From the NCBI GenBank assembly GCA_001769275.1, contig MEOQ01000019.1, positions 1-64,000 on the forward strand: a DNA stretch of 64,000 nt, in the 5' to 3' direction. The notes beneath the pieces are model-generated. The model made no database searches, was not told the origin of the DNA, and saw only the letters and a list, made by a program, of their open reading frames with translations. The position numbers and the translations under genes were made by a program. The DNA comes from Bacteroidetes bacterium GWF2_43_63. Its GTDB lineage: Bacteria; Bacteroidota; Bacteroidia; Bacteroidales; DTU049. Shown here one piece after another: positions 21,928-26,458 of this stretch. Position 1 is the first letter of the stretch. Every line of letters begins with the position of its first letter.

Positions 21928-24900
21928 CTATATCACAACGTTCACAATCTTCCCCGGCACCACAATGATTTTTTTCGGAGCTTTGCCTTCGAGCCATTTC
22001 TGACTTTCGGGCGCGCTGAGCGCGAGTTTCTCAACTTCTTCCTTTGCGGTGCCTGCAGCAACTTCGAGAATGAAACGCATTTTGCCATTGAACGAAACCG
22101 GATATTTCACCGTGTCTTCAATCATATATTTTTCGTCCCATTTTGGGAAAGTGGCTTTGGATATGGTCTCGGTGTTGCCAAGTTTGCTCCATAATTCTTC
22201 GGCAATATGCGGTGCGAACGGACAGAGCGCAATCAGCAGTGGTTCAAGAATGGCGCGCTTACGGCATTTCAGATCGCCGAGTTCGTTCACACAAATCATA
22301 AATGTACTCACGCAGGTGTTCAGCGAAAAGCGTTCAATATCTTCTTCGGTCTTCTTCAGTGTTTTGTGTAGCACTTTCAGCTCGGCCGCTGTTGGCGCGT
22401 CATCCGTGACAAGCAATGTGTCATCTTCGCCAACAAACAGTTTCCAAAGCTTGCGTATAAACCGCGACACGCCTTCGATTCCGTTGGTATCCCAGGGCTT
22501 TGACTGCTCTACCGGACCGAGAAACATTTCATACATGCGCAGTGTGTCGGCACCATATTTTTCAACGAGATCATCCGGATTCTGCACATTGTATTTCGAC
22601 TTCGACATCTTTTCGACTTCGTAGCCGCACACATATTTTTCGTCTTCAAGAAGAAAGCGTGCAGTGGTGTATTCGGGTCTCCATGCGCGGAAAGCGTCGA
22701 TATCAAGTACATCGTTGTCCACAATATTTATGTCAACATGCACGGGAAATGAAAACTGTTCGCGACCAAAAACATTCTTCGAAGCAAAGATGGGTGCTTC
22801 TTCCCACTCGTCTATCATATCGAACGGAGCGACTTCTTTTCCGGATAGTGCTTTTTTGATTTTCCTCAAAACATCATCGGTATGCAGAATCACATCAACA
22901 ATGCTGAACATGAGCAGCTGGCAATTGTTTTTTTCAGCAAATTCCGCACATGCGGGAAGACGTTCCAGAATATCACGGGAGCTCTTCACCTCAATGATAG
23001 TGTGGCTTTCAGAACTAAAGAAATCAAATGAGAATTCTCCCAGCGTGTATCCTTTTTTAAATTCTACACCCATTTGTTTATCGCGAATCATCTCCCAGAG
23101 CACGAATTCAGCCATGCGTTCGGGTTTTACACGATACACAAAATTACTACGCCCCTGAATCATTCCCTGATTAATCATTTTACGGAATGGTTCATCTTCA
23201 GGAGCCAGTTCAATATCGAAAAGAAATTTATTCCAGAAGCGGGCATACATCAAATGTCCCGTTGCATGCTCTGCTCCACCGACGTAAAAGTCAACGCTTT
23301 TCCAGTAGTTCACGGCTTCTTTCGAAAAATATTCGTTGTCGTTGCGCGGATCCATGTAGCGGAAATAATAGGCGCTCGATCCCGCAAAGCCAGGCATGGT
23401 CGACGTTTCGTAAGGGAATCCGGCTTTGGTATGCCAATCTTTGGCGCGCGCCAGCGGCGGTTCGCCGGTTTCGGTCGGTAAATATTTATCTACTTCCGGC
23501 AATTGGAGCGGGAGATCAGATTCATCAATCGTGTATGGAATTCTGTTTTTGTAATACACCGGAAATGGCTCGCCCCAATAGCGCTGGCGGCTGAAAATAG
23601 CATCGCGCAAGCGGAAGTTTATTTTGCCATAACCGAATCCTTTTTCTTCGGCATGTTCAATTACTTTTTTTATTGCATCACGCGCAATCATGTTATTTAT
23701 GAATCCGCTATTAACGCAGACGCCTTCTTTTGATTCGAATGCTTCTTCTTCGATATTACCGCCTTTAATTACTTCGACGATGGGTAATTCGAAATTTTTT
23801 GCAAATGCGTAATCGCGGCTGTCGTGAGCTGGAACGGCCATGACTGCTCCGGTTCCGTAACCACTGAGCACATAGTCTGCAACCCACACAGGAACTGCTT
23901 TTCCGTTGAACGGATTGATGGCATACGAACCTGTAAAAACACCGCTCGGAATTTTTGCATCGGTCATACGCTCGCGCTCACTGCGGTTTTTCGCATGTTT
24001 CACATAAGCAGCAACAGTTTCTTTTTGTTCTGGTTTGGTGAGCAGTTCAACGTATTCATGTTCCGGTGCGACTGACATGAATGTCACTCCAAACACAGTA
24101 TCGGGGCGGGTTGTAAAAATTTCCAGATGCTTATCCGGATGATCGGCCAGCAGGAAACGCAGCATGGCGCCTTCGCTCCGGCCAATCCAGTTGCGCTGAA
24201 TTTCTTTTATATTTTCAGGCCAGTCAATTCTTTCGAGTCCTTCAAGCATGCGGTCAGCATAAGCAGTAATGCGCAACGACCATTGTTTCATTTTTTTGCG
24301 CTCCACCGGATGTCCGCCACGAACGCTGAATCCTTCGCTCACTTCATCGTTTGCGAGAACCGTTCCCAGCGCGGGACACCAGTTCACCATAGTGTCCGCC
24401 AAATATGCAAGCCGGTAATTCATTAGAATGTCCGATTGTTTTTCTTCGCTCATTACATTCCATTCGGAGCTGGTGAAAATCACATCGCAGGAATGAGCAG
24501 CAGGAATATTTTCATTGCCGCTGTCTTCTAAAAGCGTGATCAGATCTTTGATTGGACGTGCTTTCTGTTGAGACTTATCAAACCATGAATGAAACAATTG
24601 AATAAATGTCCATTGCGTCCATTTGTAATACGCCGGATCCGATGTGCGTACTTCGCGGTCCCAGTCAAACGAGAAGCCGATTTTATCGAGCTGGCTGCGA
24701 TAGCGTTTGATATTTACATCGGTCGTGATTGCAGGATGCTGGCCGGTTTCGATGGCATACTGTTCGGCCGGAAGCCCAAAAGCATCGTAGCCCATTGGAT
24801 GCAGCACGTTGAACCCTTTCAGTTTTTTGTAACGGGCAAAAATGTCCGAAGCGATGTATCCGAGCGGATGTCCGACATGCAGTCCTGCACCCGATGGGTA

Positions 24901-25020
24901 GGGAAACATATCGAGCACATAATATTTTGGCTTGTCCGGATTTATTTCCGAACGGTAAGTCTTATTGTCAGCCCAGTATTTCTGCCACCGGGCTTCGGTC
25001 TCGCGATGATTGTAGTCCAT
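21928..25020 (-). CDS. leuS: Leucyl-tRNA synthetase with a DUF559-like nuclease insertion
   Basis: LeuRS charges and edits tRNA-Leu. The 1030-residue protein has the class I signatures HVGH (48-51, in [14 protein letters not shown]) and KMSKS (804-808), the CP1 editing domain ([19 protein letters not shown] and [20 protein letters not shown]), the RYWGEPFPV segment and a C-terminal anticodon domain. Bacteroidota LeuRS is normally about 920-950 residues. The excess lies in residues ~633-732, between [11 protein letters not shown] and the [10 protein letters not shown] strand, and resembles a DUF559 (Vsr-like, PD-(D/E)xK) endonuclease domain; see the separate entry. All LeuRS catalytic motifs are intact, so it should be functional. 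The ATG at 25020 ([16 protein letters not shown]) matches homologues. Confidence 0.95.
22825..23124 (-). other. DUF559/Vsr-like domain inserted in frame in LeuRS
   Basis: About 100 residues (633-732 of LeuRS) replace a short loop between [10 protein letters not shown] and the HVDINIV strand. The segment reads like a DUF559 domain: [18 protein letters not shown] at the front (compare AExxLWxxLRxxxLGGxxF), then FSFDFF with D666, IIEVKSS with E677 and K679, and a closing [20 protein letters not shown] (compare VLRFxxxEVxxNxxxVLxxI). The D-x10-E-x-K spacing fits a PD-(D/E)xK active site, although the usual DUF559 EVDGxxH is changed to EVKSS and the middle is short, so activity may be altered or lost. 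Confidence 0.7.
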
Positions 25021-25396: not shown

Positions 25397-26458
25397 TTAC
25401 TGATTCTCGTAGCTCAAAACTTCATCATTGAAATACTCAATCTTTACGCCGGCTTCGGCAAACATAGACTCGCTTTCTTTTCCGTCGTGATAGCGGAACT
25501 CGCACACCACGCGCTTGATGCCACAATTGATGATCAGCATGGCGCAGGTTCGGCAGGGTGTCATTTTGCAATATAAAGTTGCGTTGTCGAGCGATATTCC
25601 GTAGCGTGCGGCCTGTGTAATCGCATTTTGCTCGGCATGAACGGTGCGCACACAGTGTGTGGTGGTGCGGCCGTCCTCGTGTATCATTTTTTTGAACAGA
25701 TGTCCGACCTCGTCGCAGTGCGACAACCCGATGGGCGAACCCACATAGCCGGTGACCAGAATTCGTTTGTCGCGCACAATCACACAGCCCGAACGGCCGC
25801 GGTCGCAGGTAGCGCGCTTGGCAACGGTGTTGGAGACTTCCATGAAATATTCATCCCACGAAGGGCGGCTGTACGGAATCCCGGCCGAAGCGGCTTCTTC
25901 TCGCGCTTTTACCTCGTTCATGATGCGCTCGATCTGATCGAACAGCTGCTGAAAAGTACCATTGTTGTCGAGTGCGAAATCAGAGGTTTCTATACATTTC
26001 ATCAGGTTCTGAGTAGCCGGATCGGCGCCGTTCATTTCACGGTTTTCGTTGGCAATGAAAGTGTCGTAATCAATGTTGTCGGTCTCAGAACCACGCTGCA
26101 GAATGCGCTGGAAGCGGATGCGAGCATCGGCATCGATGGCCAGCAGAAAAAATCCGCCTTTGGAGCGCAACGCCTCAATCTCGCCTGTGGTGCGGATACT
26201 CTCGATGATGGCATGCTTACCGTTCTTCACGGCCTGATCGTGTAACTGTTCTACAATATACGAAGCGCCATGTTTTGCACGCAGTTCATTGGCTACAGTC
26301 ACCATGCTGTCACGGTTTTCGGGCATTTTGCGTCGGCGGATTTCTTTCAGTAAAAACTGCCGTACCGAAAAATGTACAAAATCGCGGTTGCGAACCAGAT
26401 AATCCACGATGGTTCCTTTTCCTGCGCCAAGTGTTCCTGTAATGCCGATGATGATCAT
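25397..26458 (-). CDS. P-loop kinase-like / dCMP deaminase fusion
   Basis: The 353-residue protein joins two domains. Residues 1-185 are a P-loop nucleotide-binding domain of the dNMP kinase/dephospho-CoA kinase type (GTLGAGKGT at 8-16, a LID-like RFQRILQRGSETD). Residues ~195-345 are a deoxycytidylate deaminase: CVIVRDKRILVTGYVGSPIG, HAEQNA (H274, E276) and PCRTC (C302, C305), the zinc ligands and catalytic Glu of the family. dCMP deaminase makes dUMP for thymidylate synthesis. The kinase-deaminase order is also that of the AvcD anti-phage deaminases, though this protein is shorter than those and no defence neighbours are seen. A housekeeping nucleotide role is the simpler reading. It is transcribed alone, towards the leuS-side repeats. 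Confidence 0.85.
   Translation of the reverse strand: MIIIGITGTLGAGKGTIVDYLVRNRDFVHFSVRQFLLKEIRRRKMPENRDSMVTVANELRAKHGASYIVEQLHDQAVKNGKHAIIESIRTTGEIEALRSKGGFFLLAIDADARIRFQRILQRGSETDNIDYDTFIANENREMNGADPATQNLMKCIETSDFALDNNGTFQQLFDQIERIMNEVKAREEAASAGIPYSRPSWDEYFMEVSNTVAKRATCDRGRSGCVIVRDKRILVTGYVGSPIGLSHCDEVGHLFKKMIHEDGRTTTHCVRTVHAEQNAITQAARYGISLDNATLYCKMTPCRTCAMLIINCGIKRVVCEFRYHDGKESESMFAEAGVKIEYFNDEVLSYENQ

Follow-up and report, generated by a model that had tools for sequence, protein, structure and literature searches.

A derived DUF559-type domain carried in frame within the leucyl-tRNA synthetase of some uncultured Bacteroidales

Leucyl-tRNA synthetase (LeuRS) is an essential enzyme that charges tRNA with leucine. 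In the window, a stretch of 64,000 nucleotides from Bacteroidetes bacterium GWF2_43_63 (contig MEOQ01000019.1), the LeuRS gene carries within its reading frame a domain that belongs, by score and predicted fold, to the DUF559 family of Vsr-fold nucleases. Family score, predicted fold, conservation, purifying selection, the single clade formed by those inserts that could be placed, and their patchy presence among relatives were all computed. Among the explanations weighed here, the one that we tentatively put first is an old domesticated nuclease-type module, kept for a metal pocket and having a predicted pocket-dependent function on nucleic acid.

In outline, some ancestor within the Bacteroidales would have acquired a DUF559 domain in its leuS, most simply in a single event. 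The entry point would have been the hairpin running into the leucine-specific domain, and the newcomer would then have become a module dedicated to LeuRS, translated within it and predicted to fold independently. Selection would keep the module chiefly through an acidic pocket formed by E638, D666 and E677. We picture it as a metal-dependent nucleic-acid unit, acting by cleavage or by metal-dependent binding, whose probable target would be RNA or tRNA brought near by LeuRS, not DNA as in homing. A nuclease-type domain that keeps a strongly conserved acidic pocket while built into an enzyme essential for translation would couple the charging of tRNA to the cleavage or sensing of nucleic acid. 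Since nature provides closely related species that differ in whether they have the insert, its effect is open to direct testing.

The extra block in LeuRS and its predicted fold

The leuS gene lies on the minus strand (21928..25020), with its ATG at 25020 and its stop codon at 21928-21930; the complete in-frame ORF (21931-25020) encodes 1030 aa. The product is a LeuRS of the bacterial type, scoring 939 bits against TIGR00396 (NCBIfam cut-off 548.4), and includes the motifs HVGHPLG at residue 48, TTRPDT at 303 and KMSKS at 804 (residues 804-808, 22597..22611, minus strand). A profile search of the whole genome returned this product as the sole LeuRS above the TIGR00396 cut-off, and no second full LeuRS that might bear the load was found there. 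Adjoining leuS, also on the minus strand, 25397-26458 encodes a P-loop (AAA) domain followed by a dCMP-deaminase domain, as identified by Pfam; its product matches the PADLOC model dCTPase at 139 bits over part of the model, and presumably resembles antiphage deaminases of the AvcD type.

The first-pass annotation had put the excess length of this LeuRS at about 100 residues, an estimate that is correct because 43 of the 48 insertless LeuRS open frames in the order span 913-970 aa, against 1030 here (the full range is 781, at a contig end, to 1019). Insertless relatives mostly read R(I/V)xGTNxFVS, whereas the window LeuRS reads R-V, then about 113 residues (632-744; 22789..23127, minus strand) in place of some five (xGTNx), then F745-A-S. 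The boundary is set at 632-744 because the text common with insertless relatives resumes at F745. The 22825-23124 interval (residues 633-732) originally assigned to the excess therefore falls inside the block but is narrower than the block that emerges from comparison with those relatives. The DUF559 domain itself occupies residues 636-725 (22846..23115, minus strand), with Pfam PF04480, AlphaFold and VIA-align to 3HRL in support. Beyond the block, residues 745-763 (22732..22788, minus strand) form a hairpin of a type that pattern comparison distinguishes from the insertless type.

All of this sits just before the leucine-specific domain and KMSKS, a place that we call site C. The leucine-specific domain lies near the tRNA and is variable among orthologues (PMC6588880), differing in topology and being absent from AgnB2 and LeuRSHp (PMC6588880, PMC5059758). 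Those variants occupy the same place ahead of KMSKS, but the accessible parts of the two papers describe no variant with a nuclease fold.

An artefact of chance or assembly is ruled out by the presence of the insert in many assemblies. Other kinds of element were looked for as well. Rfam gave nothing at E <= 1 between 21900 and 25100, nor anything above its gathering score across the window; in the window LeuRS Pfam gave no splicing domain at E <= 1, and intein junctions there were judged by eye only. With the settings used, 22600-23250 contained no flanking repeats. No PADLOC defence model matches the window's insert at E <= 0.1, and five such models weakly match one to three of 45 insert relatives.

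Pfam DUF559 matches the whole window LeuRS at 22.4 bits (E 1.2e-4) and the insert segment alone at 26.8 bits (E 4.9e-6), both above the cut-off of 20.6. Comparison of profile with profile, setting the insert against eight canonical DUF559s, gave 98.7%, and 42 of the 45 site-C sequences scanned with Pfam match DUF559 at E <= 0.01, so the family membership first suspected from the sequence holds. The window insert is the sole DUF559 match at E <= 10 in its genome.

A nuclease fold is likewise predicted, as had been proposed. The AlphaFold model of the insert segment has a pLDDT of 90.3 and a pTM of 0.82; the model of full-length LeuRS is middling (pTM 0.58), with mean pLDDT of 84-90 in the blocks from 631 to 730. 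When the insert profile was searched against the PDB with hmmsearch, 3HRL came first (E 7.5e-6), and in Foldseek the same structure was the sole match at E <= 0.001, followed by the catalytic domain of I-Bth0305I at E 0.004. VIA-align placed 3HRL clear of all others (Z 13.2, rmsd 2.1, 92 aligned). Canonical DUF559s match 3HRL at E 4.6e-28; thus the best fold match is itself DUF559-like. Further down come I-Bth0305I (3R3P; Z 9.8 over 91 residues, rmsd 2.7) and the Vsr mismatch endonuclease (1VSR, Z 9.3 over 98 residues; a second Vsr match, Z 9.0), only slightly above unrelated-looking mitoribosomal proteins (8.5, 7.7). The latter belong to a set from Toxoplasma and Tetrahymena with Z scores of 8.5 to 6.5, which we take to be RAP proteins. 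With Vsr (1VSR, 1CW0) the window domain has a predicted fold in common at 11% identity, though it is located inside LeuRS.

The insert departs from its family in the motif region. The canonical E-x-D-G-x-x-H, invariant in the 8 canonical rows, is EVKSS in the window, and at the DGxxH columns none of the 24 aligned site-C rows has D, G or H; the replacement of EVDGxxH by EVKSS had been noticed in this one copy. What remains is the Pfam score, the AExxLW helix, F-D-F, IIE and the fold, all common to DUF559 (PF04480) in its stand-alone and inserted forms and its solved relative 3HRL; site-C inserts have ExK/N/R instead of ExDG, and the later D and RF are lost along with D-G-x-x-H. A PD-(D/E)xK pattern is present in the window insert, with D666, E677 and K679 at matching places of the fold and the K varying among relatives. 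By score and predicted fold, then, the window insert is a derived, non-canonical DUF559, because it passes the cut-off and adopts the modelled fold but has no E-x-D-G-x-x-H.

The likeness to I-Bth0305I bears on a different explanation, one that we regard as unlikely: a homing-like cassette, in which the nuclease would cut insertless leuS alleles and repair would copy in the insert together with a short flanking hairpin, so that a homing endonuclease would exist simply as a domain of another protein, with neither intron nor intein around it. Enzymes of the EDxHD group such as I-Bth0305I are homing endonucleases (PMC3943268), and a cyanobacterial genome paper, in the part available, files a DUF559 gene under EDxHD (PMC9403480); a Caulobacter DUF559 protein has been predicted to be a Vsr-like repair enzyme (PMC12907096). 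The catalytic-domain fold is similar at Z 9.8, and canonical DUF559s match the I-Bth0305I sequence at E 1e-5. The conserved E and D of the insert presumably fall at the same places as in the EDxHD motif of I-Bth0305I. Against homing, the H and second D of that motif are absent at what we take to be their positions in the insert, and Pfam finds no DNA-binding domain adjoining the insert in the window LeuRS. Nor was an intron detected there.

Conserved acids, selection and the putative pocket

Conservation was tabulated over the 93 non-degenerate inserts among 98 unique ones, leaving out five rows from genus g3. The conserved acid of the AExxLW helix, E638 (23107..23109), is present in all 93; D666 (23023..23025) and the acid of ExK, E677 (22990..22992), are each present in 92. 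Together with W642 (93/93) and E634 (92/93), these are the top five of the 110 insert positions. The third position of ExK, K679 (22984..22986), is K in 52 inserts, N in 33, R in 6 and S in 2. All four codons lie on the minus strand, and D666, E677 and K679 had been placed correctly in the complete in-frame ORF. Clustering the inserts at 80% identity gives 38 clusters, and 36 of them keep E638-D666-E677 intact.

Canonical DUF559s have the same E, D and E as the site-C inserts. From the fold of the family these acids would form a metal pocket, which could in turn be catalytic. That said, catalysis may be gone, judging from the aligned rows, because D-G-x-x-H, the later D and RF are lost and 41 of 93 inserts have N, R or S in place of K679. 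Net charge (mean +0.4 over 98 inserts, +0.3 in other DUF559s, -2 in the window's copy) is near neutral and so would not speak for nucleic-acid binding.

Selection was gauged from closely related pairs. In 25 of 27 close pairs (24 of 26 without the one duplicated pair) the dN/dS of the insert lies between 0.00 and 0.13; the host gives 0.01-0.12, and the estimates are rough since some insert dS values exceed 1. The low pairs include families f81 and f101, where all three sampled genomes bear the insert; low dN/dS in families with the insert in every sampled member argues against the homing-like cassette. The two exceptions, 0.31 and 0.82, both come, within the window's family, from genus g3, whose five species (L008-L012) have each lost all three acids and bear truly decayed copies. 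Two single lineages, L007 and L046, have one acid changed each.

These exceptions bear on an improbable reading, that the insert is a tolerated remnant of a selfish insertion with no present function. The decayed g3 copies, the altered acids in L007 and L046 and the patchy presence all fit a remnant; purifying selection in 24 of 26 distinct pairs and near-invariant acids in 36 of 38 clusters do not. The suggestion made at first pass, that the domain might be inactive or a remnant, thus fits only some lineages, such as genus g3; elsewhere E638, D666 and E677 rank among the best-conserved positions of the insert, and most close pairs are under purifying selection.

Another reading, also unlikely in our estimate, would make the insert an accessory domain without catalysis, an extension of the leucine-specific domain that contributes to holding or recognising tRNA, much as in FASTKD4. 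The RAP domain of FASTKD4, a eukaryotic RNA-binding protein, reuses a Vsr-like fold; according to the part of the report available, its Vsr-like cavity binds RNA and mutation of the putative catalytic D is without effect (PMC11879112). The loss of DGxxH, the position of the insert next to the leucine-specific domain and the mitoribosomal proteins among its fold matches would all suit such a role. Yet a purely structural role does not predict pocket acids conserved like the best core positions, and the neutral to acidic charge of the insert is not what it would lead one to expect. In FASTKD4 the putative active-site acid appears to be mutable without effect (PMC11879112), whereas the site-C acids are near-invariant. 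A pocket-dependent function is favoured because the acids match the best core conservation and the domain decays where the acids are lost.

Distribution and history of the insert

Within the window's family, LeuRS aligns through the block in 10 of 11 other genomes (in one of them without the first 15 residues), and the eleventh yields no LeuRS. Across the order, 281 of 295 sampled genomes have a LeuRS match at E <= 1e-100 and at least 21 of these bear the insert, 19 as contiguous alignments (window included) and two, G086 and G219, by reading; among the matches listed, most other LeuRS of the order break at about residue 634. A sample of 395 genomes from the phylum gave a match to the insert in 80.

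A scan of the GTDB species set returned 138 insert relatives, of which the best 80 were kept. By pattern, 76 of these 80 fall within LeuRS frames, and of the remaining four, read by eye, two are LeuRS frames and two are fragments of leuS interrupted by a frameshift or by unknown bases, so that the best 80 of 138 are all in leuS and at a single site. Their records are mostly labelled Bacteroidales, Bacteroidia or Bacteroidetes/Bacteroidota, with others from Acetofilamentum, Lentimicrobium, Lentimicrobiaceae, Sphingobacteriia and 'bacterium F082', and for many of them rumen or other gut samples are named. One insert-bearing LeuRS of Bacteroidales type lies on a contig titled Methanobrevibacter (L202, NZ_JAFSNZ010000003.1), which is probably misbinned. 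L014 (G010:C363) is a second piece of LeuRS, 62% identical over residues 1-603; the genome it comes from shows 5% contamination, and its contig may be a stray one. None of 35 pattern matches in viruses was confirmed as a carrier of the site-C insert.

Presence of the insert varies over short distances. When mapped on a tree of 90 host LeuRS from which the site region had been removed (LG+G4; insert rows more than 90% alike thinned, leaving 42), presence requires 15 changes, at least 12 of them forced by supported branches. Four rows, L068, L070, L092 and L095, have unrelated sequence at the site and were scored there as insertless, and L082, which has a truncated insert, was absent through the length filter; in a smaller tree of 76 rows, where L082 was mislabelled insertless, 10 changes were needed and 9 forced. 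In those four LeuRS the stretch between NQGxIxG and KMSKS resembles neither the leucine-specific domain nor DUF559. Genus g102 has the insert in 5 of 11 species, with a supported clade of seven made up of five with it and two without; the counts are 1/2 in g106, 1/3 in g62 and 3/6 in g120. With at least 21 of 281 genomes bearing it and genera mixed, the insert is not a universal part of LeuRS in the order. Neither outcome that would have overturned the first-pass view, absence of a nuclease fold or a universal segment unlike DUF559, was obtained. Since presence and absence alternate within genera, its function must be dispensable.

The hairpins give some indication of how the two states were exchanged. 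The insert-type hairpin occurs in 90 of 93 insert-bearing rows (85 distinct proteins), the other three being unclassified by pattern and insert-like by eye. Among 47 insertless rows with KMSKS, 39 have the insertless type, eight have others and none has the insert type, so that no row crossed over between patterns that were chosen after the rows had been inspected. Simple deletion, which should sometimes leave an insert-type hairpin behind, is thus an unlikely route to the empty state, and the likelier course of the state changes is exchange for sequence from a different leuS allele. DNA windows compared between seven pairs with and without the insert place the fall in similarity at about residues 624-767 only, with no datable exchange boundary.

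The coexistence of empty, intact and decayed forms, the 15 changes, the mixed species of g102 and the pairing of each state with its own hairpin type would all be expected of a homing-like cassette. So would the discord between insert and host trees, which over the same 38 rows have only 15 of 35 splits in common. Each ML tree is formally rejected for the other part, the difference being 260 log units for the insert data and 967 for the host data, sizes that are not relied on given the treatment of branch lengths; the degenerate L007, L008, L010 and L046 were excluded from the insert tree. Other comparisons weigh against homing. Tests of whether the insert data reject two host groups broken by the insert tree were not significant (p 0.138 and 0.070). 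Insert and host similarity are correlated (Spearman 0.68), and of 3170 pairs whose hosts are less than 0.8 identical only 1 has inserts more alike than the hosts, a weak test that hides old transfers because the insert evolves faster than the host. This comparison of 3170 distant pairs yielded no clear recent transfer of the site-C insert.

Placed among other DUF559s, 24 of the 98 unique site-C inserts form one clade against 47 other rows with support of 100/99, on a tree of few columns that includes the long row L046 and in which 7 of the 47 rows are repeats under a second name (40 different). We read this history, from the trees and alignments, as one old entry into leuS followed by allele replacement, with current mobility unproven, because the placed inserts form one clade, the insert tracks its host and the tree conflicts are not significant. 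The first-pass description of the domain as mobile goes further than these trees and alignments do: the placed inserts broadly track LeuRS, though presence and absence flip repeatedly. Overall we rank the pocket-dependent module first, then, level with each other, the homing-like cassette and the non-catalytic binding extension, and the remnant last.

DUF559 domains at other in-frame sites

In the search of the phylum, 30 of 112 matches besides the window lie in open frames of at least 370 aa, and in the 29 of these that were read (all but G561) none of the matches lies at site C. Canonical DUF559s are found within these long frames at two further places in LeuRS. Site A, which follows GAxVxF where the editing part begins, is occupied in L099, L102, L109, L120 and L218, and site B, between PPLARAxxW and YELSTMPGW, in L101, L104 and L105. 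Canonical domains are also carried in frame by five MetH proteins (L208, L209, L214, L215, L219), four RecG (L106, L108, L211, L221) and four HsdR (L210, L212, L213, L217), and DUF559 occurs in frame in other genes as well. Host and insert were confirmed by Pfam for ten of these, at least one of each kind (site A, site B, MetH, RecG, HsdR), and the rest were assigned by eye. Three LeuRS, L064 (G086), L256 (G702) and L257 (G703), contain two DUF559s at once, a canonical one at site A and a derived one at site C, in open frames of 1165-1201 aa.

At two of these loci, L102 (1384-1862) and L109 (1375-1863), the inserted DUF559 lies between repeats, 41 and 39 nt long, that contain palindromes. The repeat cores are CCCTTTCC/GGAAAGGG and CCCCTCTCC/GGAGAGGGG, and the repeats are direct in L102 and inverted in L109. 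No such flanking pair was found at six other loci checked.

The canonical domains in LeuRS, MetH, RecG and HsdR suggest one way in which a nuclease may survive without a splicing element, namely as an inserted domain. For the window's insert, an origin from such an in-frame entry is plausible on sequence grounds, because canonical DUF559s sit in frame at other LeuRS sites and in other hosts; in the DUF559 tree the site-C clade falls within none of the site A, site B, MetH, RecG or HsdR groups. A bolder proposal, possible but doubtful, joins two ideas: that this is a two-function LeuRS, whose embedded Vsr-type domain would be an active nuclease that depends on metal and has tRNA or another nucleic acid as its substrate, and that leuS would be a repeated landing place for in-frame DUF559 modules without intron or intein, with three LeuRS sites and some LeuRS holding two modules at once.

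Among open-licence papers on DUF559, none concerns a LeuRS insertion as far as titles and the opening of abstracts reveal, which is weak evidence of novelty given that coverage, and the open-licence literature on nuclease-domain insertion in LeuRS or aminoacyl-tRNA synthetases, or on in-frame endonuclease insertion, likewise held nothing relevant. In several other hosts, peptides rich in Pro, Ser and Gly were seen by eye at the edges of in-frame DUF559 insertions.
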